Positions 1,030 through 33,297 of a stretch of 64,000 nucleotides of DNA are shown piece by piece (the stretch's first letter is position 1; each line of letters begins with the position of its first letter). Where the stretch lies: assembly GCA_030682475.1 (NCBI GenBank), contig JAUXOA010000091.1, positions 1-64,000 on the forward strand, given 5' to 3'. Made by a program: the position numbers and the translations under genes. The DNA comes from Rhodoferax sp. Lineage in GTDB: Bacteria; Pseudomonadota; Gammaproteobacteria; Burkholderiales; Burkholderiaceae_C. Below the pieces are notes generated by a model that did no database searches, was not told where the DNA came from, and saw nothing but the letters and a program-made list of their open reading frames with translations.

Positions 1030-1494
1030 TTATTTGCGGCGGATCAGTTCGTCCGGCCGACCGGCGCGGTAACCATCCATCATTTCCTTGGTGAACACGC
1101 CAGGGGTCGAGAGTTCAGCCATCTTGGGCATCGGTTTGCTGCCGTACGGATCAATGGAACTTTCGGCCGTGGTGCGGATCGGGAACTTGAAGCGCTTCAA
1201 CGTGCCGTTGCGGAACTTGATGGTCCACATGATCGAATCGGAGCCGCGCAGCGGCTGCACTGAACCTCCGAGAGGCACGATGTCGGCGTAGTGACGCACT
1301 TCGATCACATTTTGCGGACAGATCTTGACGCAGGAATAACATTCCCAGCACTGTTCAGTCTCATGGTTCCAGGCTTTCATCGCATGGCCGGTTTGCGAGC
1401 CGTCCTTGTCCAGCGCCATCAGATCGTGCGGGCAGATGTACATGCAGGCAGTCTTGTCCTGACCTTTGCATCCATCACATTTATCGGTTCTCAC
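1030..1494 (-). CDS. aprB: Adenylylsulfate reductase beta subunit (AprB)
   Basis: A ferredoxin-like subunit of 154 residues. It has two 4Fe-4S clusters (KCDGCKGQDKTACMYICP near residue 5; CWECYSCVKICP near 49) and the usual C-terminal tail that wraps the alpha subunit. It would pass electrons from AprA during APS formation in the cytoplasm, but the aprA downstream is a wreck. The start is odd. GTG at 1494 is the first standard start codon in frame. The family usually begins M-P-T-(F/Y)-V-(K/R)-T-D-K-C, and here the codon at the expected ATG is CTG (1504-1506, followed by CCA ACC TAC GTG). An ATG at 1513 is in another frame. The start may have been lost by mutation, so expression is doubtful. 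It lies 42 nt after sat. Confidence 0.85.
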   Translation of the reverse strand: MRTDKCDGCKGQDKTACMYICPHDLMALDKDGSQTGHAMKAWNHETEQCWECYSCVKICPQNVIEVRHYADIVPLGGSVQPLRGSDSIMWTIKFRNGTLKRFKFPIRTTAESSIDPYGSKPMPKMAELSTPGVFTKEMMDGYRAGRPDELIRRK

Positions 1495-1536
1495 GTAGGT
1501 TGGCAGTTCTCATCTCTTCTCTAGGGTTTACGGGAT

Positions 1537-2712
1537 TCATTGGGCATCAAGACCGGCGTAGTACTCGCGCAGTATTGCCAAAACTTCTGGACGACTGAAT
1601 TCGGGCGCAACTGGCGCGCCTTCAGACAGTGATTTACGCAACTGAGTGCCCGAAACCTGAAGTCGATCGGCGTCAGTGTGCGGGCAGGTGCGTGCCGATG
1701 CCATGCCGCCGCATTTGTAGCACCAAAATGAGATGTCGATCTTGAGCGGCTGTGTCTGTAGCGCACCGTCCGGAATGGTGTCAAAGATGTGGTGCGCATC
1801 GAACGGTCCGTAGTAACTGCCGACGCCGGCGTGGTCGCGCCCGACAATCTGGTGCGAGCAGCCGTAGTTCTGCCGGAACAGCGCATGCAGCAGTGCTTCG
1901 CGAGGTCCGGCATAGCGCATGTCGAGTGGGTATCCGGCCTGAATGACGGTTTTCTTGACAAAGTAATTTTCCGTCAGGGTGGCTATCGCTTTGGCCCGTA
2001 CTTCGGCTGGAATATCCCCCGGTTTGAGATTCCCAAGCAAGGAGTGAATCAGAATTCCATCGCAGGTTTCAATGGCAATTTTTGCAAGATACTCGTGTGA
2101 TCGGTGCATTGGATTGCGCGTCTGAAAGGCAGCAACCTTGCTCCATCCCAAGGCCTCAAACTGCGCTCGCGTCTGCTTGGGTGACATAAACAGGGCACCA
2201 TACTTCTCCGGGAAGTCCCCCTGAGACAGCACTTTGACCGGGCCGGCCAGATTGATCTCGCCCTGTTCCATGACCAACTTGACGCCAGGATGCTTCGGAT
2301 CATTGGTCTTGAATATGGTGGCACATTCGTGCGCCTTATCGATCTGATACTTTTCTGTCACAAGCATGGTCGCCAGGACGCTGCCGTTGTCCGGGTCGGT
2401 GAGGGCAATCTCGTCACCAATCTGGATCGCATCGGCCGCCGTCTGGGCAGCCGAGAGGGTGATCGGAATCGGCCAGAAGAGACCGTTCGCCATTTTCATG
2501 TCATCGCACACACCTTGCCAGTCGGCGTGTGTCATAAAACCGTGCAACGGTGTAAAGCCGCCAATGCCCAGCATGATGAGATCGCCTTTTTCGCGCGAAC
2601 TCACGCGCAGTGCAGGCAGCGTAGCCGCGCGCTTTCGTTCGAGCGCGAGCGCATCGCCTTCTAGCAGTAGCGGCAACAAATCACCGCCACCATGGGGATC
2701 AACTAAAGACAT
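1537..2712 (-). CDS. sat: Dissimilatory ATP sulfurylase
   Basis: Sulfate adenylyltransferase of 391 residues. In sulfur oxidisers it runs in reverse, making ATP and sulfate from APS and pyrophosphate. The ATP-binding motif [12 protein letters not shown] lies near residue 197 and the second signature GRDHAGVG near 291. A CxxC...CPHT element ([15 protein letters not shown]) near the C-terminus fits the zinc-binding homo-oligomeric type. The length is normal for the family and no APS kinase domain follows. It is followed by aprB and the broken aprA. With AprA lost, its APS supply in this direction is unclear, so it may be a relic or serve assimilation. No member of the shared TACCCAT promoter family is visible upstream. 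Confidence 0.95.
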
Positions 2713-3848: not shown

Positions 3849-4580
3849 TTACCAGGTCGTCACATCGTCGAGCGACGGTTCCGACTTGTCCGGTTTGGGC
3901 AGGAGGCCGTCAATCTTCAACGGATTGTCGGTACGGATGAGTTCGTCTTTGTGGATGCGCATCGCCGTTTTGCGCCGTGGCAGATAGTGGTTCGCAGGAC
4001 GGGTGCCCCATTCCGGCATCAGCGCGTAGCCGGCGTTGTCGCGGATCGCCACTGAGACCTCCGAGTCGGGATCGTGGATGTCGCCGAACAGGCGCGCATT
4101 GGTCGGGCAGGCGAGCACACACGCCGGTTTGCGATCGCGTTCGGGCAGGGCAATGTCGGTGATCCGATCCACGCACAGCGTACATTTTGTCATTACCTTT
4201 TTCTTCTCATCGAGCTCACGCACACCGTAGGGGCAGGCCCAGGCGCAATATTTGCAGCCGATGCACTTGTCGGCATCGACCAGCACGATGCCGTCTTCAA
4301 GCCGCTTGTAACTCGCGCCCGTCGGGCATACCGGCACGCACGGCGGATCCTCGCAATGCAGGCACGACTTCGGAAAATGCACGGTCTGCGTATTCGGGTA
4401 TTCACCGACCTCGAAGGTCTGTACCCGATTGAAAAACGTGCCGGTCGGATCCGCATCGTAGGGATTGAAGTCGGCGAGTGGTCCGGCCATCCCGGAGGTG
4501 TTCCACTGCTTGCAGCTCGTCACGCAGGCGTGGCAGCCCACGCATACGTTCAGATCGATGACCAACGCGAGCTGGGTCAT
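3849..4580 (-). CDS. soeB: SoeB, iron-sulfur subunit of sulfite dehydrogenase
   Basis: A 243-residue, four-cluster ferredoxin subunit of the DMSO reductase family. Visible motifs are CVGCHACVTSCK (residue 11 on), CLHCEDPPCVPVCP, CIGCKYCAWACP and CTLCVDR...CVLACP. It carries electrons from SoeA to SoeC. I chose ATG 4580 (MTQLALVIDLNVC) because it forms an ATGA overlap with the soeA stop; the open frame extends 31 codons upstream into soeA and that part is not family-like. There is no twin-arginine signal, in line with a cytoplasmic complex. Confidence 0.9.
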   Translation of the reverse strand: MTQLALVIDLNVCVGCHACVTSCKQWNTSGMAGPLADFNPYDADPTGTFFNRVQTFEVGEYPNTQTVHFPKSCLHCEDPPCVPVCPTGASYKRLEDGIVLVDADKCIGCKYCAWACPYGVRELDEKKKVMTKCTLCVDRITDIALPERDRKPACVLACPTNARLFGDIHDPDSEVSVAIRDNAGYALMPEWGTRPANHYLPRRKTAMRIHKDELIRTDNPLKIDGLLPKPDKSEPSLDDVTTW

Positions 4581-7486
4581 ACCCGCCCTCCGCCGCCCGC
4601 AAAATAGGCCAGCCAGCGCGGGCGCGCTGTCGCCGTGCCGGGCGCACTCGGCACCGGCGCAAATTGCGGCCATGTGACCTGCTCCTCTGCAGCATCGGCT
4701 TTGTAGATCCGCACGCGCACGTCGTACCAGGCCGCCTGGCCCGTGACCGGATCGGAATTGGACATGACTCCTTCGCCGGGCTTGCCGGGAAGTTCCTCGC
4801 TGATCAGGTGATTGAGCAGGAAGCCGCGTTGCGACTCGTTGGCGCCGGGCGCGAGATGCCAGGCGCCGGCGGCCTTGCCGATGGCGTTCCAGGTCCAGAT
4901 GGTGCCGGGCTCAACCGCCTCGGAATAACTGGCAAGACAGCGCACCTTGCCCCATTGCGATTCCACCCACATCCAGCCGCCGTCTTCGATCCCCGCGGCG
5001 CGCGCAACGAGGGGATTGATGAACATAGGGTTGTGCGTGTGGATCTGCCGCAGCCAGGCGTTTTGTGAGTCCCACGAGTGGTACATCGCCATCGGTCGCT
5101 GCGTCACCGCGTTAAGCGGATATTTCGCCAGATCGGCTTGCTGCGCTTCCAGCGGCTCGTAGTAAAACGGCAATGGATCGAAATAGGTTTCGATGCGCTT
5201 TTTGAGGTGCGCCGGCGGTTTGCGCGACATGCCCTTGCCCTGCGCGGCGAGGCGAAATTTTTGCAATACCTCCGAATACAGGTGGATCAGGATCGGTTCC
5301 GCGTAGCGCTGGATGCGATTGCGCTGCGACCATTCGAGATAGCCCTGGTTCCAGTTGCGCATGTACTGGTAGGAGGCAGGAAGTTTGTAGTGGTAGACGC
5401 AGTTGTTTTTGGCGTACATCTCCCACTGCCGAGGATTGGGCTCGCCGCGCATGAATTTCTCGCCGCCTTTGCCGCGCCAGCCCGCCAGAAAGCCGATACC
5501 CGATCCGGGTTCGGTTTCATAGTTGGTGATGAAATCGGGATAGTCACGGTATTTGCGTTCACCATTCGGGCGCACGAAGGCTGGAAATTTCAGGCGACTG
5601 GCAAGCTCAATCAGCACCTCCTGAAACGGTTTGCACTCGCCACTCGGCGGCAGCACCGGAATGCGCACCGCGTCAACCGGGCCATCGAATTCCGAAATGG
5701 GTCGGTCCAGCATCGACATCACATCGTGGCGCTCGAGGTAGGTGGTGTCGGGCAACACCAGATCGGCGAACGCCGTGGTCTCCGACTGAAAGGCGTCGCA
5801 GACCACCAGGAATGGAATCTTGTACTCGCCGTCTTCGCCCCTGTCGTTGAGCATGTTGCGCACTTCTGACGTGTTCATGGTCGAATTCCACGCCATGTTC
5901 GACATGAACAGCATCAGCGTATCGATCGGGTACGGGTCACCACGCCAAGCGTTGGTGATGACGTTGTGCATCATGCCGTGCACCGACAGTGGGTACTCCC
6001 ACGAAAACGCTTTATCGATGCGCACCGGTTTGCCGTCATCGTCAACGAACAGATCATCCGGCTCGGCCGGCCAGCCCATTGCCATGCCGTCCAACGGCGT
6101 GTTGGGCTTGATCGCGAGCGGCGTGTTGGGCGTCTTGGCGCACGGTGGAATCGGCCGTGGAAACGGTGCTTTGTGGCGAAATCCACCGGGACGGTCGATG
6201 GTGCCGAGCAAGGTCATTAGGATCGCCAGCGAGCGGGTGGTGTGAAAGCCGTTCGAATGCGCGGCCAGACCGCGCATCGCATGGAAGGCAACCGGATTGC
6301 CGGTGGTGGTGTCGTGCTCCTTGCCCCAGCAGTCGGTCCAGGCGATGGGCAACTCAATCTTCTGGTCACGCGCGGTGATACCCATCTCATGCGCGAGGCG
6401 ACGAATCGAATCGACCGGAATACCGGTGATCCCCGCCGCCCATTCGGGCGTGTAGTCGGCGACGCGCTCCTTGAGAAGCTGGAACGCGGGCTTGACCGCC
6501 GTACCATCTGACAGAGCGAACTCACCGAGCAAAAACGGGTCGCAGCCCTCAGTGTGGGTGATCACCGCGCGGTTACTCACCCGATCCCACCAGAGCTTGT
6601 TTTGCGGATCGAAACAACCCTCTTCTTTTGGCACTTCGGTGCGTACAAACATGCCGAATTCGTCGTTGGCATCGTCCATGTTGACCAACTGGCCGGAGTT
6701 TGTATAGCGCACCAGGAATTCCCGGTCATACAGGCCCAGCTTGATGAGTTCGTGGATCAGTGCCAGCAGCAGCGCGCCGTCGGTGCCGGGTTTGATCGGC
6801 AGCCATTCGTCGGCGATCGCCGAATAACCGCTGCGGATCGGGTTGATCGAAATGAAACGTCCACCGTTGCGTTTGAATTTCGAGATCGCTATTTTCATCG
6901 GGTTGGAATTGTGATCTTCGGCCGTGCCCAGCATCACGAACAGCTTGGCGCGATCCAGGTCGGGCCCGCCAAATTCCCAAAACGATCCGCCGATGGTGTA
7001 GATCATTCCGGCCGCGATATTGACCGAACAGAAGCCGCCGTGCGCTGCGTAATTCGGCGTGCCGAACTGACGCGCGAACAGACCCGTCAGTGCCTGCATT
7101 TGATCGCGCCCGGTGAATAGCGCGAATTTCTTGGGGTCGGTTGCGCGGATCTTGCCGAGGCGGTCTTCCAGCGTCTTGAAGGCTTCGTCCCAACTCACCT
7201 CGACGAACTTGCCCTCACCGCGATCAGAGCCTGGCATGCGCTTGAGCGGTTTGGTCAGGCGCGCAGGCGAATACTGCTTCATGATGCCCGACGCGCCCTT
7301 GGCGCAGATCACGCCCTGGTTCAGCGGATGATCCGGGTTGCCATCGATGTAGCGCACTTCGCCGTTGCGCAAGTGCACCCGGATACCGCAGCGGCAGGCG
7401 CACATATAGCACGTGGTGTTGCGCGTCTCGGTGCTGGCTTCGGGTAGCACGGGGCGGCAAGGATCGTGTAGCGGTGCGGCAGACAT
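4577..7486 (-). CDS. soeA: SoeA, molybdopterin catalytic subunit of sulfite dehydrogenase
   Basis: A 969-residue molybdopterin oxidoreductase that oxidises sulfite directly to sulfate. The N-terminus carries the 4Fe-4S site CYMCACRCG...GVICAKG (residues about 26-63), followed by the molybdopterin domains and the dinucleotide-binding domain at the C-terminus. No TAT leader is visible, which fits cytoplasmic SoeA; the length is close to known SoeA proteins (about 970). It leads a soeA-soeB-soeC unit. Upstream, on the same strand, lies a promoter of the shared TACCCAT family (7605-7648). With aprA broken, this complex should be the main route for sulfite made by the reverse Dsr pathway. A polysulfide or thiosulfate reductase role is less likely because of the neighbours. 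Confidence 0.9.
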   Translation of the reverse strand: MSAAPLHDPCRPVLPEASTETRNTTCYMCACRCGIRVHLRNGEVRYIDGNPDHPLNQGVICAKGASGIMKQYSPARLTKPLKRMPGSDRGEGKFVEVSWDEAFKTLEDRLGKIRATDPKKFALFTGRDQMQALTGLFARQFGTPNYAAHGGFCSVNIAAGMIYTIGGSFWEFGGPDLDRAKLFVMLGTAEDHNSNPMKIAISKFKRNGGRFISINPIRSGYSAIADEWLPIKPGTDGALLLALIHELIKLGLYDREFLVRYTNSGQLVNMDDANDEFGMFVRTEVPKEEGCFDPQNKLWWDRVSNRAVITHTEGCDPFLLGEFALSDGTAVKPAFQLLKERVADYTPEWAAGITGIPVDSIRRLAHEMGITARDQKIELPIAWTDCWGKEHDTTTGNPVAFHAMRGLAAHSNGFHTTRSLAILMTLLGTIDRPGGFRHKAPFPRPIPPCAKTPNTPLAIKPNTPLDGMAMGWPAEPDDLFVDDDGKPVRIDKAFSWEYPLSVHGMMHNVITNAWRGDPYPIDTLMLFMSNMAWNSTMNTSEVRNMLNDRGEDGEYKIPFLVVCDAFQSETTAFADLVLPDTTYLERHDVMSMLDRPISEFDGPVDAVRIPVLPPSGECKPFQEVLIELASRLKFPAFVRPNGERKYRDYPDFITNYETEPGSGIGFLAGWRGKGGEKFMRGEPNPRQWEMYAKNNCVYHYKLPASYQYMRNWNQGYLEWSQRNRIQRYAEPILIHLYSEVLQKFRLAAQGKGMSRKPPAHLKKRIETYFDPLPFYYEPLEAQQADLAKYPLNAVTQRPMAMYHSWDSQNAWLRQIHTHNPMFINPLVARAAGIEDGGWMWVESQWGKVRCLASYSEAVEPGTIWTWNAIGKAAGAWHLAPGANESQRGFLLNHLISEELPGKPGEGVMSNSDPVTGQAAWYDVRVRIYKADAAEEQVTWPQFAPVPSAPGTATARPRWLAYFAGGGGRV

Positions 7487-7604
7487 GCAGGGGGTGTTTT
7501 TCTGGCTGGCGGGTTAACCAAATGGGTAATGCAAACGGTCCATAATCAGAGTGCAAGGGCAGGGTTTGCAGAGTGACCCTATTAAAGACAATGGCGCCCG
7601 GCCC

Positions 7605-7648
7605 CGTCTATAACCGACACGGGTAATCCGGTGTAGCCTGAATGGGTA
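7605..7648 (-). promoter_or_regulatory. Sulfur-regulon promoter of soeABC
   Basis: Read on the minus strand: TACCCAT (7648-7642), 16 nt, TACCCGT (7625-7619), then CGGTTATAGACG with a TATAGA -10-like element (about 7611-7606). The same elements at the same spacing occur upstream of 23886 and of tusA. The boxes start 23 bp apart, about two helical turns, and the second falls where a -35 element would be. No TTGACA-like -35 is visible, which suggests an activator-dependent promoter. TACCCAT fits the NarL heptamer TACYYMT. A further TACCCAT lies at 7528-7522 in the leader. Confidence 0.75.
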
Positions 7649-7683
7649 GCGTGACCGCTTCAGGTCTTCACGATGAATCAGCT

Positions 7684-7704
7684 CCGGGTAATGTATTACC
7701 ATGG
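7684..7704. promoter_or_regulatory. Inverted GGTAAT-GT-ATTACC operator-like element
   Basis: GGTAAT and ATTACC form a perfect inverted repeat with a 2-nt centre (core 7688-7701), just upstream of the preferred start of the histidine kinase gene at 7723. It resembles the half-sites of the neighbouring TACCC boxes and could serve autoregulation. This is inference from symmetry and position. Confidence 0.4.
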
Positions 7705-7722
7705 CATGTTTGCGACCTTCCC

Positions 7723-8940
7723 ATGATTCCGGCCCCTAAGCTGTTCACCCTGGCCACTCCCGCAATCCCCGCGGAGGGGGGTTCTATCGTCTCCGGATTG
7801 ACGACGGAACTTGCTGCAGCTAGTGATCTGGAGCCGCTACTGGAGCGCTTTCTGGTTTCCATCGTTGCACTGGCCGGGGCCCAGGCCGGGGCCGTCCGAG
7901 TCCTGACCGACGACGGACAATACATGCGGCTGGTGGCGCAGCAAGGCTTGCCGCCTGACCTGCTGAGCACCGAACGGCTGGTGGAGCGCGACTGCGGCAT
8001 GTGCGGTATCGCTTCGGGTACCGATGTGCTGGGCTGGGTGGACGACGTAAGGTCCTGCGCCCGGCACAGCGGGCAAGTCTATTTTGGCCTGCAATGCAAG
8101 AGTGTGCTGGCCATATCTCTGCCCCACGGCAAGCAGGTACTGGGGATCTACAACCTGTTTTTTGAAGCCAATGCCCACATCAACCCGCAAACCGAGACCA
8201 TATTGCGCTTGATTGGCCAGTTGTTGGGACTGGCACTGCACAATGCCCGGATTGAGCGCGAGCGCCTGCGCGTGACGGTGCTCAAAGAGCGCCAGGAAAT
8301 GCTCCATGAAGTGCATGACGCCATTGCGCAGACCCTGGCTTACGTCAAGATGCGCCTGCCCTTGCTGAACGATGCCATGCTGGCTCACGATGACCAGCGC
8401 TCGCTCAAATACTTTTCGGATGTCAAACAGGCAGTGGGGGATGCCCATAACAATTTGCGCGAGGTCATGACTTACTTTCGCACCCGCATGGACCCGCTGG
8501 GCCTGCTGCATGCGCTCCAGGGCATTGCCGACGGTTTTTTTGACCGCACCGGTATCACACTGGAAATCCGGAATTCGGTGCAAAATCTGAATCTGTCCGA
8601 CCAACAGGAGGTTCAGGTGTTTCACATTGTGCAGGAAGCGCTGGCCAACATTGCCAAGCACTCGATGGCCCGACACGCCGTGCTGACGATTGACAAGACA
8701 CCCCAGCGACTGGAGTTTCTGATCGAGGACGATGGGCTGGGTCTGGCCGCACCGTCGGTATCGACCATTGTGACCATGGCGAAAGGGTTTGCACCCCCGG
8801 CCCATTTCGGGCTGGAAATCATGCAGGGCAGGGCGCAGCGCCTGGGTGGCAGCATTGAGGTGGGCATGAATGAAGGTGGCGGCACGCGGGTACACTTGGT
8901 GCTTCCAACAAGTTCCCTCTCCCTGGGGTTTCACACATGA
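7723..8940 (+). CDS. NarX-type soluble sensor histidine kinase (GAF-HisKA_3-HATPase)
   Basis: A 405-residue kinase. A GAF-like domain (about residues 15-180) holds a cysteine group (DCGMCG, RSCARHSG, LQCKS) reminiscent of the cysteine cluster in the central module of NarX/NarQ. A HisKA_3 phosphoacceptor follows (HEVHDAIAQTL). Then comes an HATPase domain with N-box (VQEALANIAKHS) and G-boxes (EDDGLGL; HFGLEIMQGRA). No membrane span or periplasmic sensor is seen, so the signal is probably cytosolic, perhaps redox or a sulfur species. The frame is open from ATG 7642, but that ATG lies within a TACCCAT box, so I prefer 7723; neither start has a clear ribosome binding site. It overlaps the next gene by 4 nt (ATGA). 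Confidence 0.85.
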   Translation: MIPAPKLFTLATPAIPAEGGSIVSGLTTELAAASDLEPLLERFLVSIVALAGAQAGAVRVLTDDGQYMRLVAQQGLPPDLLSTERLVERDCGMCGIASGTDVLGWVDDVRSCARHSGQVYFGLQCKSVLAISLPHGKQVLGIYNLFFEANAHINPQTETILRLIGQLLGLALHNARIERERLRVTVLKERQEMLHEVHDAIAQTLAYVKMRLPLLNDAMLAHDDQRSLKYFSDVKQAVGDAHNNLREVMTYFRTRMDPLGLLHALQGIADGFFDRTGITLEIRNSVQNLNLSDQQEVQVFHIVQEALANIAKHSMARHAVLTIDKTPQRLEFLIEDDGLGLAAPSVSTIVTMAKGFAPPAHFGLEIMQGRAQRLGGSIEVGMNEGGGTRVHLVLPTSSLSLGFHT

Positions 8941-9635
8941 CAGCCAAGACACGGGTGATGCTGGTGGACGACCACGCGTTGTGCCGCAGTGGCCTGACCG
9001 AGCTGCTGGAACACCGCAGCGACATGAGGGTGGTGGGGGCCACGGGCGACCCGGCGCAGGTGGTGCCGATGCTGATCGAGCATCAGCCTGACCTGATGGT
9101 GCTGGACTTGCGCCTGGCGACGACCGATGGTCTGAGTTTGCTGCGCCTGATTCGCGCGCAAGGATACGAAATTCCGGTCGTCATACTGACCATGAGCGAC
9201 AGCGAAGATGACATGTCCGCCGCGTTACGTGCCGGCGTGCGGGGCTACCTGCTCAAAGACATGGAACCCGAGGAGGTGATTGACGCCATCGGTCGGGCGG
9301 CACGCGGTGAAATGGTGGTCGCCTCAGCCATGACGCTGAAACTCGCGCAAATACTGCAATCCGGCCCCAAGGGATCGGTCATGGGTGATCTGGTAGCCTC
9401 GCTCACCGAACGCGAGCGTGAGGTGCTCGACCACGTGGCACGCGGCCAGAGCAACAAGGTCATTGCCAAGGCGCTCGACATCAGCCACAACACGGTCAAG
9501 CTGCACGTGCGCCATATCATGGACAAGCTCAACCTTCGCTCGCGGGTTGAAGCGGCGGTATTTGCGTTTGAGTACCGCAGCTCGCCAGACGGGGTCAAGG
9601 CGGCGGGCGAGGCGGCACAGAAAATTAAAGGCTGA
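8937..9635 (+). CDS. NarL-type response regulator
   Basis: A 232-residue regulator. The N-terminal receiver shows DD (VDDHALCR), the phosphoacceptor aspartate in LMVLDLRLA and the lysine in YLLKDMEPEE. The C-terminal LuxR/NarL HTH (about residues 155-215: LTEREREVLDHVARGQSNK, ALDISHNTVKLHVRHIM, LRSRVEAAVFAFE) is close to that of E. coli NarL. The start overlaps the kinase stop, so the two are one operon. Its likely sites are the TACCCAT boxes upstream of soeA, the accessory cluster and tusA. No nitrate-respiration genes are in the window, so a role in sulfur oxidation is inferred. Confidence 0.9.
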   Translation: MTAKTRVMLVDDHALCRSGLTELLEHRSDMRVVGATGDPAQVVPMLIEHQPDLMVLDLRLATTDGLSLLRLIRAQGYEIPVVILTMSDSEDDMSAALRAGVRGYLLKDMEPEEVIDAIGRAARGEMVVASAMTLKLAQILQSGPKGSVMGDLVASLTEREREVLDHVARGQSNKVIAKALDISHNTVKLHVRHIMDKLNLRSRVEAAVFAFEYRSSPDGVKAAGEAAQKIKG

Positions 9636-11042: not shown

Positions 11043-12833
11043 CTAATGTTCGCCCTTGGTCTTCAAAAGTCCGGCCAAACGGTTGCCTTGCTTCTGTGGT
11101 CCGCCGATCGGAAAAATCTCGTGCAGATAGTGATTGTTACCACGCGCGGGCCCCCATGTTTTGGCGAAGTGCCAAATCATCGCACGAACTTGCGCCTGCA
11201 CCCGATGTTCCTCAAAATACCCCCGCAAAAAGGCGATGACCTGCCAATGCGCTTCGGTTAACTCGAGATTTTCCGCCCTGGCCTGTGCCCGTGCAAAGTC
11301 TTCAGACCAATCGCCCAGGTTTTTCAGATAGCCTTCGGAGTCGGTGGCGACTGGTTGATCATTGACCTGCACGGTACGCATGTTTGCGGCGGCCTGCGGC
11401 CTGGAGGCGATTTTCTGCGCGCGCACAAAGGCCACAAACTGCTCGGCCCAGCCGGTGCCTGCGCCGCTGCGCAGATGGGCGTAGGAGGCGAGTACGTTGC
11501 GATAGACAATGCCGTCGCGCTCGCCGTCCACGCCATGCCCGCGCAGCACACGATAGGCAAACTTCAGCTCGGGTGCCAGGTTTTCCAGGCTGGAATAATG
11601 AAACTCGTGCCCGCGCAGCGTTGGCGGCGTAGCGTCCGCAGTGACGGGCCAGGGCGCATCGGCGGTGGTTTGCAGCTCTACATAACCGCGTCCGACAGGG
11701 CGCTCATGCATCACCACATCCACCGGCAGCGCACCGACCATGTCGTAAACACCGTCTTTCCAGCGCAGCGTGCGTGCCAGGTACATCAGGCCGCCGCATT
11801 CGGCATAGACCGGCAGACCGGCTTCAATCGCGCTGCGGATGCCTTCGCGCAAGCTGGCATTGGCCTGCAACGCAGGCATGAACATTTCCGGGAAGCCACC
11901 GCCGATGAACAGGCCATCCACCGTCGGCAGACCGGCGTCTTGCAAGGTGTTGAAGGGGACGATCTCGGCCCCCGCTGCCTCGAGCGCCAGCAGGTCGTCG
12001 GGGTAGTAAAAGCCAAACGCCTTGTCGCGCGCCAGACCGATGCGAACGCGCGGCTGCGGCGCCAAACTCCGTTCGGGCTGAGCCTGTCGAAGCCCTTCGA
12101 CAGGCTCAGGGTGAACGGTTGGGGTTGTTCCAGGCTGAGTAAGAAGGGGCGCGGCACTGGCGGCGATCCGCAACACCCGTGGCAAATCAACCTGTGCTGC
12201 GATCAGCTCACCCATGGCGCGCACACGTTGCGCGGCGTCATCGAGCTCATGGTTGGGCATCAGCCCAAGATGGCGCTCCACCAGCGCCAGACGCGGGTCG
12301 TGACTGATGGCGCCCAGCACCGGCACATCGGTGTAATGTTCGATCACGGCGCGCAGCTTGGATTCGTGCCGGGCTCCGCCCAACTGGTTCAGGATGACAC
12401 CGGCAATGCGGATGCGCGGATCAAAGGCCTGGTAGCCCAGAATCAGCGGCGCGATGCCGCGCGTCATGCCGCGCGCGTCCAGCACCAGCAGCACCGGCAA
12501 GTCCAGCAAATGCGCCAGTGCGGCGTTGCTGTTGCTGCCGTCCAGCGCCAAGCCGTCGTACAAGCCTTTGTTGCCTTCCACGATGCTGATGTCAGCGAGC
12601 GCGGCGTGACGCAGGAAGCAGGCGGTGATTCTCTCCGACGTCATCAGGAAGGGGTCGAGGTTGAAGCAGGCGCCCCCGCTGGCCTGACCCAGCCACATCG
12701 GGTCAATGTAGTCCGGCCCTTTTTTGAAGGGCTGCACGATCAGGCCTTGCGCTGACAGTGCGGCGCACAGGCCTACCGTGATGGTGGTCTTGCCGGAAGA
12801 CTTATGCGCAGCCGAAACCAGAAAGCGGGACAT
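11043..12833 (-). CDS. dsrN: DsrN (CobB-type amidase) fused to a DsrC-like domain
   Basis: A 596-residue fusion. Residues 1 to about 470 are a cobyrinic acid a,c-diamide synthase-type glutamine amidotransferase: an N-terminal P-loop (HKSSGKTTITVG) and a C-terminal glutaminase part with nucleophile motif AECGGLMYL. DsrN is thought to amidate siroheme for DsrAB. From Met485 the protein carries a DsrC/TusE fold (DSEGYLKNLGDWSEDFA, LTEAHWQVIAFLRGYF, HYLHEIFPIGGPQKQ). It lacks both C-terminal cysteines (GNRLAGLLKTKGEH in place of ACKIAGLPKPTGC). Usual DsrN ends after the CobB part. Residues about 239-255 are encoded by an in-frame copy of the GTTCGGGCTGAGCC palindrome. No ribosome binding site precedes Met485, so the domain is probably not made separately. 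Confidence 0.9.
   Translation of the reverse strand: MSRFLVSAAHKSSGKTTITVGLCAALSAQGLIVQPFKKGPDYIDPMWLGQASGGACFNLDPFLMTSERITACFLRHAALADISIVEGNKGLYDGLALDGSNSNAALAHLLDLPVLLVLDARGMTRGIAPLILGYQAFDPRIRIAGVILNQLGGARHESKLRAVIEHYTDVPVLGAISHDPRLALVERHLGLMPNHELDDAAQRVRAMGELIAAQVDLPRVLRIAASAAPLLTQPGTTPTVHPEPVEGLRQAQPERSLAPQPRVRIGLARDKAFGFYYPDDLLALEAAGAEIVPFNTLQDAGLPTVDGLFIGGGFPEMFMPALQANASLREGIRSAIEAGLPVYAECGGLMYLARTLRWKDGVYDMVGALPVDVVMHERPVGRGYVELQTTADAPWPVTADATPPTLRGHEFHYSSLENLAPELKFAYRVLRGHGVDGERDGIVYRNVLASYAHLRSGAGTGWAEQFVAFVRAQKIASRPQAAANMRTVQVNDQPVATDSEGYLKNLGDWSEDFARAQARAENLELTEAHWQVIAFLRGYFEEHRVQAQVRAMIWHFAKTWGPARGNNHYLHEIFPIGGPQKQGNRLAGLLKTKGEH
12071..12118. repeat. Dispersed palindrome within dsrN
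   Basis: A GTTCGGGCTGAGCCTGTCGA/TCGACAGGCTCAG inverted repeat inserted in frame in dsrN. Read on the coding strand it gives peptide [16 protein letters not shown]. Related copies interrupt ligA twice. Confidence 0.85.
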
Positions 12834-22318: not shown

Positions 22319-23599
22319 TCATGCAGCCGCTTTGCGGGCGTTGATTTTGGCCACTTCATCGTCCCAGCCGTCGGCGCGGACATAGGGGTTGGTGCGCGGC
22401 GTGGTAACCATGTTGGCATCAATCTCCAGCTCGATGCCTTCCAGGAAGTTGACCAGCCCGATGCGTTCGATCATCTCACCGGTGCGCTCGTGTTCCAGCG
22501 CATTTTCGGCAAAGAAGTCGATCGTCTTCTGACCCAGATCCACCAGCGCCTGGTAATCCTCATCGGTCTTCATGGGCATGAAGGGCACGACTACCGTGCC
22601 CATCAGATCGCCGATCTTGAGTGTGCGCTTGCCGCCCATCAGTACTGTTACGCCCTTGTCAGTGCCGGTGGCCAGGGCCCCGGTCATGACGTTGATGCAG
22701 TGCATGCAGCGCACGCAGTTGCCATTGTCGATTTCCAGCGACTGGGTGTCGTTGATGGCGACGCTGGAAATCTTCGGGCCCTTGGCGACATCTTTGGTCT
22801 CCTTGAGCATGATGGTCTTGGTCGGGCAGCGGCTGACCACATCGTTCACCAGTTCGGTCATGCCGTGTTTGGTGAACCACTTGCGCGCCATGGATTCATC
22901 GGTGCGAATGTTGTCGCGCCAGGTGCCGATGACCGCCATGTCGGCACGCTGGATGGAATTCATGCAGTCATTCGGGCAGCCCGAAAACTTGAACTTGAAC
23001 TTGTAAGGCAGCGCCGGGCGGTGCATGTCGTCCAGAAAGGTGTTGAGCACCTGGCGGTGTGCCCGCCCCTCGTCATAGCAGGACTGCTCGCAGCGCGCCG
23101 CACCGACGCAGGACATGCTGGTGCGCACCGCCGGGCCGGCGCCACCCAGGTCAAAGCCCAGTTCGTTCAGCTCATCGAAGGCGCCCTGCACGTTGGCCGT
23201 GCTGGCACCCTGGAACATGATGTCGCCGGACTGGCCGTGAAAGGCAATCAGGCCGGAGCCGTGGCGCTCCCAGATGTCGCACATATCGCGCAGCACCTTG
23301 CTGTTGTAGTGCATGCCTGCCGGTGGCTGCACGCGCAGGGTGTGAAATTCCTTGGAGGCAGGGAACATCTCGGCCACTTCGGAAAACCGGGGGATGACAC
23401 CACCGCCATAGCCAAATACCCCGACCGTGCCGCCCTTCCAGTAACCCTTGCGGGTTTTGTAGGAGTGCTCCAGTTGACCCATCAGGTCGGTCATGTAGTC
23501 GCTTTCCTTGGCCAGCCGTTTCAGACCGGTCACAAAGCTCGGCCACGGACCAGCCTCTAGCTGGTCGAGCATGGGGGTGTCGTACGGTTTCTTGCTCAT
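22319..23599 (-). CDS. dsrA: Reverse-type dissimilatory sulfite reductase alpha subunit
   Basis: A 426-residue subunit. Siroheme/4Fe-4S ligands are in SCVGAARCEQSCYDEG and KFSGCPNDC; a ferredoxin insert motif CVRCMHCINVMTGA lies near residue 290. It works in the oxidative direction, as shown by the presence of dsrEFH and dsrL. It is the first gene of the dsr operon, with GGAGA before the start. A 48-nt repeat lies in its leader. A TATGAT -10 candidate (23705-23700, minus strand) has no good -35 element, so its promoter is not settled. Confidence 0.97.
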   Translation of the reverse strand: MSKKPYDTPMLDQLEAGPWPSFVTGLKRLAKESDYMTDLMGQLEHSYKTRKGYWKGGTVGVFGYGGGVIPRFSEVAEMFPASKEFHTLRVQPPAGMHYNSKVLRDMCDIWERHGSGLIAFHGQSGDIMFQGASTANVQGAFDELNELGFDLGGAGPAVRTSMSCVGAARCEQSCYDEGRAHRQVLNTFLDDMHRPALPYKFKFKFSGCPNDCMNSIQRADMAVIGTWRDNIRTDESMARKWFTKHGMTELVNDVVSRCPTKTIMLKETKDVAKGPKISSVAINDTQSLEIDNGNCVRCMHCINVMTGALATGTDKGVTVLMGGKRTLKIGDLMGTVVVPFMPMKTDEDYQALVDLGQKTIDFFAENALEHERTGEMIERIGLVNFLEGIELEIDANMVTTPRTNPYVRADGWDDEVAKINARKAAA

Positions 23600-23666: not shown

Positions 23667-23811
23667 AGGTTTCAGGATGCGAACGGGGTGCATTGATCGA
23701 TCATAGCCTGGCTGACGTCCGCCTCTTCGGGCCGGTTCACAGTCAACTCTGGGCTGGATGTTACGTGTCACCGTGCGGCGGGCGCTATCACCCTCGTTCA
23801 GTATGATGTGC

Positions 23812-23856
23812 TACCCATTAGGGCTATATGTCCCCACCCGTGCCGGTTATAGACGG
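23812..23856 (+). promoter_or_regulatory. Sulfur-regulon promoter of the accessory cluster
   Basis: TACCCAT (23812-23818), 16 nt, CACCCGT (23835-23841), CCGGTTATAGACGG (-10-like TATAGA at 23848-23853). The elements and spacing are the same as upstream of soeA. Around the -10 a perfect GTGCCG-N8-CGGCAC inverted repeat is present. The -10 lies about 33 nt before the start at 23886. The region back to dsrA (23667-23811) may hold the dsrA promoter, which could share the TACCCAT box. Confidence 0.75.
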
Positions 23857-23885
23857 CACGGCCCGTCATTGCGCCAAATAGCACC

Positions 23886-24125
23886 ATGACGACCATTACT
23901 CCGCTTGAAAAGCTGACCGTCCCCCTGGGTGGGCAGGTCATCGAATTGCAGCAGTTGGACTATGACGCGGGCGGCATGAGCTTGCTGCGCACGCGCATCC
24001 GCGAGAAAAGCCGTTTTACGGTGTTTGAGATTGACCCCCGGACGGCACGGCTTTGGGGTGAGGCCCTGCTGCGCTGGGCGCAGACGCAACCGCAGCCGGA
24101 CCCCTTGGCGCAGGATCCGGCATGA
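23886..24125 (+). CDS. Small conserved protein of unknown function
   Basis: A 79-residue protein, MTTITPLEKLTVPLGGQVIE..., with a central charged segment (LLRTRIREKSRFTVFEIDP) and a C-terminal helix (TARLWGEALLRWAQ). No membrane span or cysteine. It may match a small domain of unknown function (I think DUF6967, from memory). It is the first gene behind the shared promoter and overlaps the Cas6-like gene by 4 nt (ATGA), so the two are translationally coupled. Confidence 0.8.
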   Translation: MTTITPLEKLTVPLGGQVIELQQLDYDAGGMSLLRTRIREKSRFTVFEIDPRTARLWGEALLRWAQTQPQPDPLAQDPA

Positions 24126-24742
24126 CGGCCCGGCAAACACCGGTGGATGAGGTGGCGGACGCGGTATTTCCCCTTGATGGGCAGGTATTGCCACGCGACC
24201 ATGCACAGGCGCTGCAGCAGGCCCTGTCGGCTCAGTTGCCCTGGCTGGACACAGATTCTGTGGCAGGGATACACCCCATCAAGATGGTGCACGGCAGCGA
24301 AGATCAGGCCCTGCTGTCCCGGCGCGCGCGCTTGCTGCTGCGGGTCGGGGCACGGCGCGTGGACGAGCTGATGGCGCTGGCCGGTTTTGACCTTGATGTG
24401 GCTGGTTATTGCTTGCGCCTGGGCGTGCCGCACCGGCGCGAACTACAGCCCCACGCCACCTTGTATGCGTACAAGGTGGCAGCCGACAGTGCCGACGAAA
24501 TAAGGTTCATGGCGGCGGTGGGCCGTGAACTGGCGCAACTGGCCATCGGCGGCAAGCCGGTGTGCGGCAAGCGCCAGCGCATGCTGGTATCGGGCCGTGT
24601 GCTCGACACCTTCAGCTTGATGCTGCACGAACTGCCACCGGAACAATCACTGCGTCTGCAGCAACACGGCCTGGGGCCGCACCGACTGCTGGGTTGCGGG
24701 ATATTTGTGCCCCACAAGTCGGCTGCTGCGGTCGGGAGCTAG
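24122..24742 (+). CDS. Cas6/Cmx6-like RAMP protein without CRISPR
   Basis: A 206-residue protein. The N-terminal part (VDEVADAVFPLDGQVLPRDH, then IHPIKMV) and the C-terminal part (RLQQHGLGPHRLLGCGIFVP) match, as I recall them, the Cas6/Cmx6 family of type I-MYXAN systems. The last part resembles the glycine-rich loop of RAMP (ferredoxin-like fold) proteins. No CRISPR repeats or other cas genes are in the window, and the gene sits inside a sulfur cluster. It therefore probably has another role, perhaps RNA binding or protein binding. Histidines at GVPHRRE, LQPHATL and QQHGLGPH could be catalytic if it is a nuclease; this is inference. Confidence 0.65.
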   Translation: MTARQTPVDEVADAVFPLDGQVLPRDHAQALQQALSAQLPWLDTDSVAGIHPIKMVHGSEDQALLSRRARLLLRVGARRVDELMALAGFDLDVAGYCLRLGVPHRRELQPHATLYAYKVAADSADEIRFMAAVGRELAQLAIGGKPVCGKRQRMLVSGRVLDTFSLMLHELPPEQSLRLQQHGLGPHRLLGCGIFVPHKSAAAVGS

Positions 24743-24769: not shown

Positions 24770-25102
24770 ATGATGATGTACAACGTCAATGGCGTGGAAC
24801 TTGAGGCCGACGATCTCGGCTACCTGCTGGAGCCGGTTTTTGATGACGAGGCGGTGCGTGTCATCGCAACGGCAGAAAACATCGAGTTGACCGATGCGCA
24901 CTGGGAGGTCGTGAACTACCTGCGCGACCAGTACCGCGAACACGGCCACACCCCGAACTTTCGAGCCATGCTCAAGGGCCTGTCGGAAATCAACCCCGGT
25001 GTGGACAGTAAGTACCTGTACGACCTGTTCCCGGTGGGTCCGGCCAAGCAGGGGCCCAAAGTAGCCGCCTTGCCGCAGCCTCTCGGTAAAGGCGGTTATT
25101 GA
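24770..25102 (+). CDS. DsrC/TusE-like paralogue lacking both active cysteines
   Basis: A 110-residue protein with the DsrC fold (EADDLGYLLEPVFDDEA, LTDAHWEVVNYLRDQYREHG, SKYLYDLFPVGPAKQ). The C-terminal arm reads GPKVAALPQPLGKGGY, so both the upstream and the penultimate cysteine of DsrC are replaced. Such cysteine-free relatives (called RspA in the literature, as I recall) cannot carry sulfur and have been suggested to be regulatory. The preferred start could be the second or third Met of MMMYNVNG. It follows the Cas6-like gene by 27 nt. Confidence 0.85.
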   Translation: MMMYNVNGVELEADDLGYLLEPVFDDEAVRVIATAENIELTDAHWEVVNYLRDQYREHGHTPNFRAMLKGLSEINPGVDSKYLYDLFPVGPAKQGPKVAALPQPLGKGGY

Positions 25103-26648: not shown

Positions 26649-28127
26649 ATGTCACATCAAGTCAGCGTTTGGCGTGCCGCCCTGTTGGTGGGTGTGGCGC
26701 GCGGCGTGTTGCAGCAACAGGTGCGCAAGGGCGCGCTGGCCCTGAGTGACACAGGACTGGTGTCCACCGATGCCTTGTTGCAGCTCTACCCCGGCGCCAA
26801 GCTGGAAGAGTCTGGTTTGCTGGAGCGCGTGGCGCAAATCCGGGACGAAGCCTTCGGCAGAAGAGTGCGCGAGCGCCTGCTGCCCAGTCAGGAAGTGCTG
26901 GCGCAACGTCTGTTTGCGCAAAGCCAGGATTTGGCCGACGTGCGCAAACACTTGCAGCGCTACCACAGCCTGGTGATCGCACTGCAAAAGCGTATTCGGG
27001 AACTGGCCGCGCAGCGTCTCGGCGATGCCGCCTGGCGGGAGCTGGAACAACAGGTCAGCCAGGGGCTGGCGCAGGCGCTGGCGACCGAGTCGGTCGATTT
27101 ATTGGAGGTGATGGACGATATGCTCAAAGTCATGACGGCACAGGTCACGGTGCGCCCGAGCGGTCACCAGTTCCTGGTAGAGGGGCACGCCAGCCTGCTG
27201 CAGTCCGGTCTGTACGCCGGACTCAAACTTAACTACGGCTGTGGCAATGGCAGTTGCGGCATGTGCAAGGTGCGTGTGATTTCCGGCGAGGTCGTCAAAA
27301 CCCAGCACTTTGACTACCCTCTGTCGGAAGCGGAAAAAACCCAGGGTTACACCCTGATGTGCTGCCACACCGCCGCCAGCAGTGAACTCACGCTGGAAAT
27401 GCTGGAGGCCAGTGGCCCGCAGGACATCCCCGAACAACAAATCGTGACCCAGGTGCGTGCGGTTTCCGAGCTGGCGCCCGATACGCGGCTGCTGCACTTG
27501 CAAACTCCGCGCAGCCATCGACTGCGTTTTCTGGCTGGGCAGTCGGTGTTGCTGGGCTGGGCGGTGTCGGGCCAGGACGATGTGCACGCCGTTTACCCGC
27601 TGGCCAGTTGCCCCTGTGATGATCGCAATCTGCTCTTCTTCATTGCACGCGATGAGTCCGATGCGCTGGCACGGCAACTGTTTGCGGGCAAGATCGAACC
27701 CGGTGCTGCCGTCACGGTGCTGGGGCCGACCGGCGAGTTCGTGCTGGCCGACGGCAACCGCCCCTTGGTGTTTGCCGCCTGCGACGCTGGATTCGCACCC
27801 ATCAAGAGCTTGATCGAAACCGCACTGGCATTGGACGGTGCACCTTCGCTTTCCTTGTTCTGGCTGGCCACGCGCAGCGACGGGCATTTTTTAAGCAACC
27901 AGTGCCGCGCCTGGTCCGAGGCGCTGGACCAATTTGAATACGAGCTGGTGTCGCATGCGGATGTCACAGTCGGCGCGCAGCAGATCGCCCAGGCCATGCG
28001 GGCCGACCTGTTTGACATTGACTGTGACTTTTACCTGGCCGGGCCGCCGAATTTTGTCAGCACACTGCACGATGAATTGCGCGCGGCGGGAGTGGCGGCG
28101 GCGCAGATCGTCACCCTGGTGTTGTGA
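26649..28127 (+). CDS. 2Fe-2S ferredoxin/FAD reductase with novel N-terminal domain
   Basis: A 492-residue protein. Residues 1 to about 155 form a helical region I do not recognise (KHLQRYHSLVIALQKRIREL). Residues about 165-260 are a plant-type ferredoxin (NYGCGNGSCGMCKVRV and a fourth cysteine in LMCCHTAAS). From about 270 there is a ferredoxin-NAD(P)+ reductase part with a flavin-binding region and NAD-binding elements (VFAACDAGFAPIKSLIE; FYLAGPPNFVSTLHDELRAAGV). Such fusions pass electrons from NAD(P)H to an oxygenase. Here the adjacent dioxygenase normally needs none, so the partner is open. It overlaps the next gene by 4 nt. Confidence 0.82.
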   Translation: MSHQVSVWRAALLVGVARGVLQQQVRKGALALSDTGLVSTDALLQLYPGAKLEESGLLERVAQIRDEAFGRRVRERLLPSQEVLAQRLFAQSQDLADVRKHLQRYHSLVIALQKRIRELAAQRLGDAAWRELEQQVSQGLAQALATESVDLLEVMDDMLKVMTAQVTVRPSGHQFLVEGHASLLQSGLYAGLKLNYGCGNGSCGMCKVRVISGEVVKTQHFDYPLSEAEKTQGYTLMCCHTAASSELTLEMLEASGPQDIPEQQIVTQVRAVSELAPDTRLLHLQTPRSHRLRFLAGQSVLLGWAVSGQDDVHAVYPLASCPCDDRNLLFFIARDESDALARQLFAGKIEPGAAVTVLGPTGEFVLADGNRPLVFAACDAGFAPIKSLIETALALDGAPSLSLFWLATRSDGHFLSNQCRAWSEALDQFEYELVSHADVTVGAQQIAQAMRADLFDIDCDFYLAGPPNFVSTLHDELRAAGVAAAQIVTLVL

Positions 28128-28543
28128 AACTGACGGTGTTTGAGTTTGACATGCCCCCCTCCACGAATCCTCCATCGGCAGCGCACGGGGCCACCTACGC
28201 CGATGCGATATCCCCAGCGGCAGATGCTGCCCTGCCGGAATGTGGGGGCGGCGAATCCTTTGCGCTGATGGTGATGGGTCACAGCATGGTGCCCGAGTTC
28301 AATGAGGGCGAGATCATCATCATCGAGCCCGCCGGGCTGGCCAAGGACGGCGTCTATGTGCTGGCCTGGCATCAGGAAGAATGGACCTTCCGGCAACTGC
28401 TGCGGGCTGGCACGGGCTGGCTGCTGCACCCGCTGAACCCGGCGTTTGCGGATGCAGCGCTGGTCGATCTCGACGCCGTGCGTGGCGTCATTATCCAGAA
28501 GGCATTGCCGGGGCGTCGGCGGGCTTCCAAACACTACATCTAA
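28124..28543 (+). CDS. S24 (LexA/UmuD-like) domain protein without DNA-binding domain
   Basis: A 139-residue protein. The S24 fold is marked by LMVMGHSMVPEFNEGEIIIIEPA, with the serine in HSM. The lysine that completes the Ser-Lys dyad in LexA (VKRL) is arginine here (WTFRQLL), so self-cleavage seems unlikely. No helix-turn-helix precedes the domain. A C-terminal basic tail (RRRASKHYI) follows. It could act as a sensor or scaffold. Its ATG overlaps the reductase stop. Confidence 0.8.
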   Translation: MKLTVFEFDMPPSTNPPSAAHGATYADAISPAADAALPECGGGESFALMVMGHSMVPEFNEGEIIIIEPAGLAKDGVYVLAWHQEEWTFRQLLRAGTGWLLHPLNPAFADAALVDLDAVRGVIIQKALPGRRRASKHYI

Positions 28544-31889: not shown

Positions 31890-32117
31890 TCAGGCTTTTC
31901 TGAGATAGAACACGAACTTGCTGTTCTCGGTGCTTTGTTCCAGCAGCGCGTTGCCGGTCTGTTCGGCGAAGGCGACCATGTCGCACACCGAGCCCGGATC
32001 GGTGGCGATCACGCGCAGCACATGCCCCGAGCTCATGTCGGCCAGCGCTTTCTTGGTTTTTACGATGGGCAGCGGGCAGGCCAGGCCCGATGCGTCAAAT
32101 TCCTTGTTGAATTCCAT
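31890..32117 (-). CDS. tusA: TusA sulfur carrier protein
   Basis: A 75-residue TusA. The sulfur-carrying cysteine is in the CPxP motif ASGLACPLPIVKTKKAL. It delivers sulfane sulfur to DsrEFH in dsr-bearing sulfur oxidisers. ATG 32117 (MEFNKEFDASG) has GGAGA upstream; the longer frame to 32177 is not family-like. It is the first gene of a tusA-dsrE2-unknown-yeeE unit driven by the third copy of the shared promoter. Confidence 0.94.
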   Translation of the reverse strand: MEFNKEFDASGLACPLPIVKTKKALADMSSGHVLRVIATDPGSVCDMVAFAEQTGNALLEQSTENSKFVFYLRKA

Positions 32118-32229
32118 GTCTTGTCTCCGTTGGTTGACTGTTTGCAGTTGCTTATTATGGGGGAAAAGACCAACCATTCCTGCGCAACAGGCACTATGCC
32201 CACTGCGCGTGCTGATTCTTGAGTAGGTG

Positions 32230-33297
32230 TCACGGTGCGTCTATTACCGCAAAGGGTAATATTGGGTAACCCATATGGGTAATGGGGTTTTGGCTCTTGG
32301 CGGCAAAAGCGCGGGCAAAATCCTGGCTGATGGCCAGCACCTGGGGCAGCGCTGCGGGGTCATCGCAGGCCACCACGCGGCGTTCGGGCATGGAGCGCAA
32401 CCAGGTGAGCTGGCGCTTGGCGAGCTGGCGTGTGGCGAAGATGCCTTTGTCGCGCAGCTCACTCATCGGCCACAAGCCATCAAGCGCTTCCCACGCCTGG
32501 CGGTAGCCGACACAGCGCATGGAAGGCAAGTCAGCGTGCAGGTCGCCACGCGCGCGCAGGGCTTTGACTTCATCCAGAAAACCAGCCGATAGCATGGCGT
32601 CAAAACGCTGGGCAATGCGCTGGTGCAGCCAGGCTCGGTCCAGCGGCTCGAGCGAAATCAACAGCCTGTCGTCGGCTGAAGATTCGGGGTCATTCTGGTC
32701 TCTATTTTTTGTCGTGTGAAAGGATGATAGGGCTTGTCCTGACACCCGAAAAACCTCTAGCGCCCGCGCAATGCGCTGCGTGTCCGCCGGATTCAGGCGT
32801 GCGGCGGCCACCGGGTCAACCAGGGCCAGCGCTGCGTGCATGGCGGGCCAACCGGCGTGGCGGGCCTCTTCTTCCAGTTCAGCGCGAATGGCCGGGTCAG
32901 CCTTGGGCATGGCATCCAGCCCTTGCAGCAGCGCCTTGAAGTACAGCAGGGTGCCCCCCACCAGCAGCGCCAGCTTGCCGCGGGCCGTGATATCGGCAAT
33001 CAGCGTGCGGGCGTCAGCCACAAACCCGGCGGCGCTGTAGGCCTGTAGCGGATCCCGGATGTTGATCAGGTGGTGCGGCACGGCTGCCAACTCGGCAGCC
33101 GTGGGTTTGGCGGTGCCAATGTCCATGCCCCGATAGACCAGCGCCGAGTCGACGCTGATGATCTCAACGGCGTGTTGGCGTGCGATGGCCAGGGCGGCGG
33201 CAGTCTTGCCCGAGGCGGTCGGGCCGGCCAGCGCCAGGTAGCGCAGCGGGCCGCGCGCCGAGGCCGGGGGAATGTCAGTGTTGGCCGGTTTTTCCAT
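32230..33297 (-). CDS. miaA: tRNA dimethylallyltransferase
   Basis: A 355-residue MiaA. It puts an isopentenyl group on A37 of tRNAs reading UNN codons. The P-loop is [37 protein letters not shown] and [16 protein letters not shown] are typical blocks. The usual length is about 310-320; the C-terminus here is extended ([23 protein letters not shown]), and its last part is encoded by the tusA promoter region. The start overlaps the end of the exporter gene by 23 nt. Confidence 0.93.
32238..32281 (-). promoter_or_regulatory. Sulfur-regulon promoter of tusA, inside the miaA 3' end
   Basis: Minus strand: TACCCAT (32281-32275), 16 nt, TACCCTT (32258-32252), GCGGTAATAGACG. The spacing is identical to the copies before soeA and before 23886. 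An extra TACCCA lies between the boxes, and the first box is half of the palindrome ACCCATATGGGT. The element overlaps the last codons of miaA, about 120 nt before the tusA start. Confidence 0.75.

Follow-up and report, generated by a model that had tools for sequence, protein, structure and literature searches.

A conserved tandem-box promoter module at sulfur-oxidation genes of Rhodoferax and its candidate NarL-like activator

Sulfur oxidation by the reverse Dsr pathway is a widespread means of gaining energy. Among the matches listed from the open-licence PMC literature, no title or abstract opening names a DNA-binding regulator or operator for the rDsr genes. A Rhodoferax sp. contig stretch of 64,000 nucleotides (the window) has a sequence between dsrA and a divergent DUF6967 gene that recurs before soeA and tusA, which raises the question of whether one promoter type unites these genes, and which protein might bind it. 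The first-pass annotation of this DNA had described three sites with identical spacing, and a pattern search of the window finds all three exactly as described (Table 1), except that the module at dsrA ends at 23855, one base short of the end originally given (23856). The genome-wide search that the annotation had proposed turned out to rest on a usable pattern: with at most 3 mismatches, the full 44-bp pattern has four matches in the whole 3.29-Mb genome (3,288,128 bases in 112 contigs, 94% complete), and a reversed-pattern control has none. The three window sites have 0 mismatches; the fourth (C49:15292-15335), with 2, lies at a sox locus, flanked by soxY and a gene for a dienelactone hydrolase. 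Taken by itself, the two-box core has little specificity once up to 2 mismatches are allowed (6 window matches, the 3 exact ones included, versus 4.8 expected). The complete module is real, specific, far beyond chance and widely conserved.

Table 1. Coordinates of the promoter modules and of the genes around them in the window
Feature	Position	Strand	Remarks
Module at dsrA/DUF6967	23812-23855	+	box A 23812-23826; box B 23835-23849; -35 TAGACG 23850-23855
-10-like CCAAAT, dsrA/DUF6967 module	23874-23879	+	18-bp spacer
Box C, TACTGAACGAGGGTGA	23788-23803	-	third box, facing dsrA, ~23 bp from box A
-35-like TAGCGC toward dsrA	23787-23782	-	putative promoter element
-10-like TAACAT toward dsrA	23763-23758	-	putative promoter element, 18 bp on
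Module before soeA	7605-7648	-	box A 7648-7634; box B 7625-7611; -35 7610-7605
-10-like TTTAAT, soeA module	7581-7586	-	18-bp spacer; from sequence and class pattern
Module before tusA	32238-32281	-	box A 32281-32267; box B 32258-32244; -35 32243-32238
-10-like AAGAAT, tusA module	32215-32220	-	17-bp spacer; from sequence and class pattern
NarL-like response regulator, proposed activator	8937-9635	+	Pfam PF00072 1.8e-26, PF00196 4.2e-22
Histidine kinase, GAF-HisKA_3-HATPase_c	7642-8940	+	true start probably internal; conserved Cys cluster
soeA-like molybdopterin oxidoreductase	4577-7486	-	Pfam domains only
soeB-like	4673-3849	-	after soeA
soeC-like	3836-2856	-
ATP sulfurylase	2712-1537	-
aprB-like	1494-1030	-
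dsrA	22319-23599	-	first rDsr operon gene, divergent from module; TIGR02064, 524.7 bits, cutoff 392.85
DUF6967 gene	23886-24125	+	first downstream of module; function unassigned DUF
Cas6-like	24122-24742	+	PF09559 2.6e-56; TIGR02807 Cmx6 150.9 bits, above cutoff
DsrC-like	24770-25102	+	after Cas6-like gene
tusA	31890-32117	-
dsrE2	31850-31380	-	after tusA
ORF	31311-30430	-	no Pfam match
Sulf_transp (TsuA/YeeE-like) transporter	30402-29293	-	TsuA models match below cutoffs

Each module contains two copies of the same 15-bp dyad, box A (TACCCATNTGGGYTA) and box B (YACCCKTNNCGGTRA), 23 bp apart; across 79 distinct aligned sites, symmetry peaks at module positions 7.5 and 30.5, and the direct repeat peaks at 23. 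The spacing of the two boxes had been recognized at first pass, but each box as then drawn was only the left half of its dyad. The second had been set against the -35 region, and the hexamer TAGACG does directly follow box B; the dimeric activator then suggested is supported as probable, while its binding to one face of the DNA holds only approximately, 23 bp being about 2.2 turns at some 10.5 bp per turn. GGTWATAGACG, formerly taken as the -10 or start region, is actually the right half of box B joined to the -35 hexamer; its reading as a -10 is ruled out by a better-placed, almost invariant AAT beyond TAGACG. An additional symmetry peak at 38.5, spanning GGTRATAGACG, is as strong as the box B dyad when all 79 distinct sites are taken (scores 0.52 and 0.49), which counts against the two-operator reading.

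A -10-like NNNAAT hexamer lies 17-18 bp past TAGACG in 75 of the 76 nonredundant placed sites (with AAT starting at position 65 in 49 of them and at position 66 in the other 26), against a mean of 3.5 and a maximum of 9 in shuffles, which do not keep the relatedness of the sites. TAGACG matches the sigma-70 -35 consensus, TTGACA, at 4 of 6 positions, and the -10 hexamer matches TATAAT at 2.8-4.0 of 6 on average, according to class; so imperfect a core suits an activated promoter. An operator abutting the -35 with a -10 about 17 bp further on is, at the sequence level, the arrangement of a tandem-site activated sigma-70 promoter. The conserved positions fall mainly in the two dyads, the -35 and the -10; the flanks and the spacer between the boxes are for the most part variable. 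Transcription is predicted to start near position 75, about 30 bp downstream of TAGACG, which would put the boxes near -44 and -67. The predicted leaders are about 82-90 bases for soeA, tusA and the sox-side gene; at the 23812 module the predicted start falls about on the ATG of the DUF6967 gene, whose mRNA may be leaderless or nearly so in this genome.

Toward dsrA a further box (box C, Table 1) has the consensus TAc.CAACGaGGG.GAT.G in 25 aligned dsr-class loci, an alignment that excludes the window, whose own box C differs at one consensus base. In this class, too, a -10-like element lies past box C on the dsrA side. Boxes C, A and B follow one another in steps of about 23 bp, and the central box A is probably shared by two divergent promoters. 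A box-A-like element, TACCCATTTGGTTA, at 7509-7531 (minus strand) in the soeA leader was considered as a further part of the module and rejected, being inconsistently kept in relatives: of 24 relatives in the soe class only 6 have TACCCA within the first 170 bp downstream, at varying places. Relaxing the profile search to E values of up to 0.3 in 32 genomes that carry the module gave only weak extra sites, some in the same contexts; in the genome of the window these were two partial matches, C48:69958 (E 0.019) and 7509-7531 (E 0.2). Neither the Rfam scan nor the tRNA scan of the window gave a match. The tusA module overlaps the 3' end of the upstream ORF, which is presumably miaA-like.

Across 89 Rhodoferax genomes, the refined pattern with as many as 3 mismatches allowed has 84 sites, spread over 30 of the genomes, and the reversed-pattern control has none in any of the 89. 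The first-pass annotation had asked whether the pattern turns up at many unrelated sites or inside genes; all 84 sites fall into four sulfur-gene contexts, namely dsrA/DUF6967, soeA/kinase, tusA-dsrE2 and soxY. Placement by tblastn of 79 sites (78 of the 84 and one more detected by a weight matrix made from 62 of 79 distinct sequences) puts 25 sites at dsrA/DUF6967, 24 beside the kinase gene (soeA found downstream in 22), 23 upstream of tusA-dsrE2 and 7 beside soxY; the other six of the 84 were located individually. The common sulfur regulon proposed earlier is upheld with a wider membership, which also takes in the rDsr core, with dsrA divergent at 23812, and sox. The gene at 4577-7486 is presumably soeA, Pfam showing only its domains. 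ATP sulfurylase and aprB-like genes (1030-2712, minus strand) follow soeABC, and no aprA was identified among the window ORFs scanned; both routes by which sulfite is oxidized may thus be under the soe module.

Several features of the surrounding genes are recorded here in their own right. The second gene after the 23812 module encodes a Cas6-family protein inside the sulfur cluster, and its homologs (53-76% identity) occur near the dsr-class module in most of the relatives placed. A CobB/CobQ-type amidotransferase (11043-12833, minus strand), which we take to be DsrN-like, carries an extra C-terminal DsrC domain (residues 489-592). The dsrA genes of four genomes (G012, G034, G073 and G102; loci L114-L117) each contain one in-frame TGA inside the open frame, in four copies altogether.

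Beyond the genus, a first set of 60 genomes, the window's own included, had the module in 13, all of them Rhodoferax, and in none of its 24 genomes of other families. A sequence profile was trained on 26 sites, of which six came from loci not covered by the pattern search of the genus. It detects the module in 33 of 349 family genomes, which belong to 18 of 141 genera; six of the 33 supplied training sites (G000, G010, G162, G377, G438 and G452) and 27 did not. The 87 family sites at E <= 0.001 comprise 60 that were placed, 7 from Rhodoferax and 20 outside the placed set. Of those placed, 56 lie beside the same genes as in the genus (by row count, 18 at dsr, 14 at soe or kinase/regulator genes and 24 at tus or sox; many of the tus sites were assigned by how far away later genes of the operon lie). 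Of the other four, outside the usual contexts, three stand before sulfur-related genes (ATP sulfurylase, a SulP permease and a TauE/SafE permease) and one before a gene for a Rieske/CMD protein.

The candidate binder encoded beside the soeA module is a response regulator of the NarL/FixJ (LuxR-type) family, with a Response_reg receiver followed by a GerE helix-turn-helix. Its closest solved structure is NarL (1a04, 2.5e-44), and D57 is kept in at least 95% of 80 aligned sequences, but with 213.2 bits against a cutoff of 250 in the NarL equivalog model (NF007935) it is not classed as NarL proper. The aligned recognition-helix segment TVKLHVRH (TVKVHVKH in NarL) is presumably the DNA-reading part. 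The adjacent GAF histidine kinase has cysteines 88, 91, 109 and 122 (numbered from window base 7732) kept in 85, 95, 98 and 69% of 65 aligned sequences, respectively; according to the available text of PMC3519889, a Cys cluster distinguishes E. coli NarX from NarQ. Pfam scans of 36 chosen window ORFs, which include an S24-peptidase-like protein (28124-28543), found no ArsR domain and no other DNA-binding regulator domain.

Regulator and module occur together. In the 89 Rhodoferax genomes the module is present in 30, the regulator (at least 70% identity over the matched part) in 28 and dsrA in 28, with module and regulator together in 27, module only in 3, regulator only in 1 and neither in 58. 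The three genomes with the module only (G008, G021 and G087) speak against the regulator reading; one of them (G021, 91% complete) is also without dsrA, and the one site that it keeps, at tus, has an altered -35. The sole regulator-only genome (G009, 74% complete) does contain a weak match to the profile (E 0.0037), some 1 kb away from the regulator gene. Across the family, with at most the best 8 regulator, 5 dsrA and 2 soeA candidates scored per genome, the regulator (E <= 1e-70) is found in 32 of 349 genomes, all 32 of which have the module, and the module is in none of 39 genomes whose best candidates include soeA but neither regulator nor dsrA. Some of the loci used to train the profile had themselves been located by way of the regulator, which counts against the argument from co-occurrence, and the genes usually share one cluster, so that co-inheritance could produce the same pattern. 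In one single-contig genome (G129) the regulator, at 1.688 Mb, is about 0.8 Mb from one module (0.880 Mb) and about 1.1 Mb from the other (2.792 Mb), which argues for action in trans.

Among more distant regulators there is evidence against this reading. Where they are 64-71% identical (L181-L194), the module stands beside the kinase gene in 7 of 14 loci, with -35 and -10 in register (L181, L182, L183, L190, L192, L193 and L194), and is absent there in the other 7, one of which (L187, from G310) belongs to a genome with modules elsewhere. Regulator homologs of at most 52% identity have no profile match in 22 of 22 loci, and in the same search 10 of 11 betaproteobacterial loci have none, the loci in both cases reaching at most about 20 kb, a span that would miss modules farther off. 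Gammaproteobacterial kinase/regulator homologs of 46-50% identity (L199, L204, L215 and L216) lie near tusA, in three cases with dsrE2 also near, and have no profile match.

The boxes resemble the NarL operator in part. Against the heptamer quoted as TACYYMT in the available portion of PMC4886647, the left half of box A is an exact match in 55 of 79 distinct sites, and that of box B in 0 of 79; the right halves average 1.9 (box A) and 2.6 (box B) matches of 7. A NarL 7-2-7 reading of the operator was accordingly rejected, as it fits 0 of the 79 distinct sites.

The reading that these observations make likely is an activator-dependent sigma-70 promoter with tandem operators for the NarL-like protein, by which the rDsr, Soe, Tus and Sox genes would be activated together. 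The proposal that this protein is the binder, already made at first pass, is favored by co-occurrence; because dsrA co-occurs with the module equally well (32 of the 33 family module genomes), we infer the identity of the regulator rather than observe it, and its role is the most economical reading, not proof. The behavior of dsrA would also suit a true activator-type sulfur promoter bound by some other rDsr-linked regulator, the kinase/regulator pair being a passenger of the cluster, as would the departure of the boxes from 7-2-7 and a genome (G213) with module and dsrA but no regulator match at E <= 1e-70. That explanation is nevertheless unlikely, given that 24 of the 79 placed sites, the soe class, lie in the intergenic region of the kinase gene itself, that the left halves of box A match the NarL heptamer, that the unlinked regulator of G129 has been retained, and that the Pfam scans of the 36 chosen window ORFs offer no other candidate.

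Repression in place of activation would have a protein at the boxes near -44 and -67 block the -35 and leave in the presence of sulfur compounds, in the manner of the ArsR-type SoxR and sHdrR. Box B abuts the -35, and in Hyphomicrobium the regulators known to control thiosulfate oxidation act as repressors, as described in the accessible part of PMC12423496; yet the imperfect core promoter suits activation, and NarL activates ogt from both of these positions (available text of PMC7419079), so that repression seems rather improbable. Many of the sites stand in a few linked operons, as would be expected had a promoter cassette been copied to places in front of sulfur genes and then been kept there with no common regulator, but with conservation confined mainly to the dyads, -35 and -10, and with the pattern kept at unlinked places and in 18 genera, such copying can be given very little credence.

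Under the preferred reading, that of a sigma-70 promoter needing an activator and carrying two operators for one dimeric regulator, the kinase would phosphorylate the NarL-like protein, which, bound as two dimers, would recruit RNA polymerase. Reduced sulfur would then jointly switch on rDsr with its accessory genes, SoeABC with ATP sulfurylase, TusA-DsrE2-transporter and Sox, the signal perhaps being read by the conserved Cys cluster of the kinase. The fuller claim, that an undescribed NarL-type system with a Cys-cluster GAF kinase is the dedicated master activator of reverse-Dsr sulfur oxidation in Burkholderiales, acting through a compact, non-7-2-7 tandem operator with a shared box at dsrA, has about an even chance of being correct; if true, it would name a likely master switch for a sulfur-oxidation energy pathway. 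The analysis provides a candidate regulator, an exact 44-bp predicted operator, predicted start sites and a target list, and the module is a genome-readable marker for Burkholderiales that may coordinate Dsr, Soe, Tus and Sox.

The rDsr genes of Allochromatium vinosum differ in expression during growth on sulfide (Grimm et al. 2010, cited in PMC3397948), and the available part of PMC3397948 names no DNA-binding regulator or operator for them. NreBC of Bacillus licheniformis is likewise a two-component system acting on sulfur oxidation, its regulator binding DNA better when phosphorylated and its targets being genes for sulfide and sulfane sulfur; unlike the system proposed here, it belongs to a Bacillus, answers sulfide and governs sqr and pdo, and the accessible text of its source mentions no link to rDsr, Soe or Sox (PMC9918477). 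SoxR and sHdrR of Hyphomicrobium also place several sulfur-oxidation operons under coordinate control, but they are ArsR-type repressors with two conserved cysteines acting on sox and shdr, whereas a two-component activator is proposed here (PMC12423496). A close parallel in promoter design is E. coli ogt, which NarL activates in answer to nitrate through 7-2-7 sites at -44.5 and -77.5, and also from -67.5, according to the available text of PMC7419079. Both promoters have tandem inverted repeats for dimers of the NarL family (here as proposed), one of them abutting the -35, and the activating positions -44.5 and -67.5 correspond to those predicted for the module. In contrast to ogt (PMC7419079), the dyads of the module are more compact and stand 23 bp apart, and the genes that they precede oxidize sulfur.
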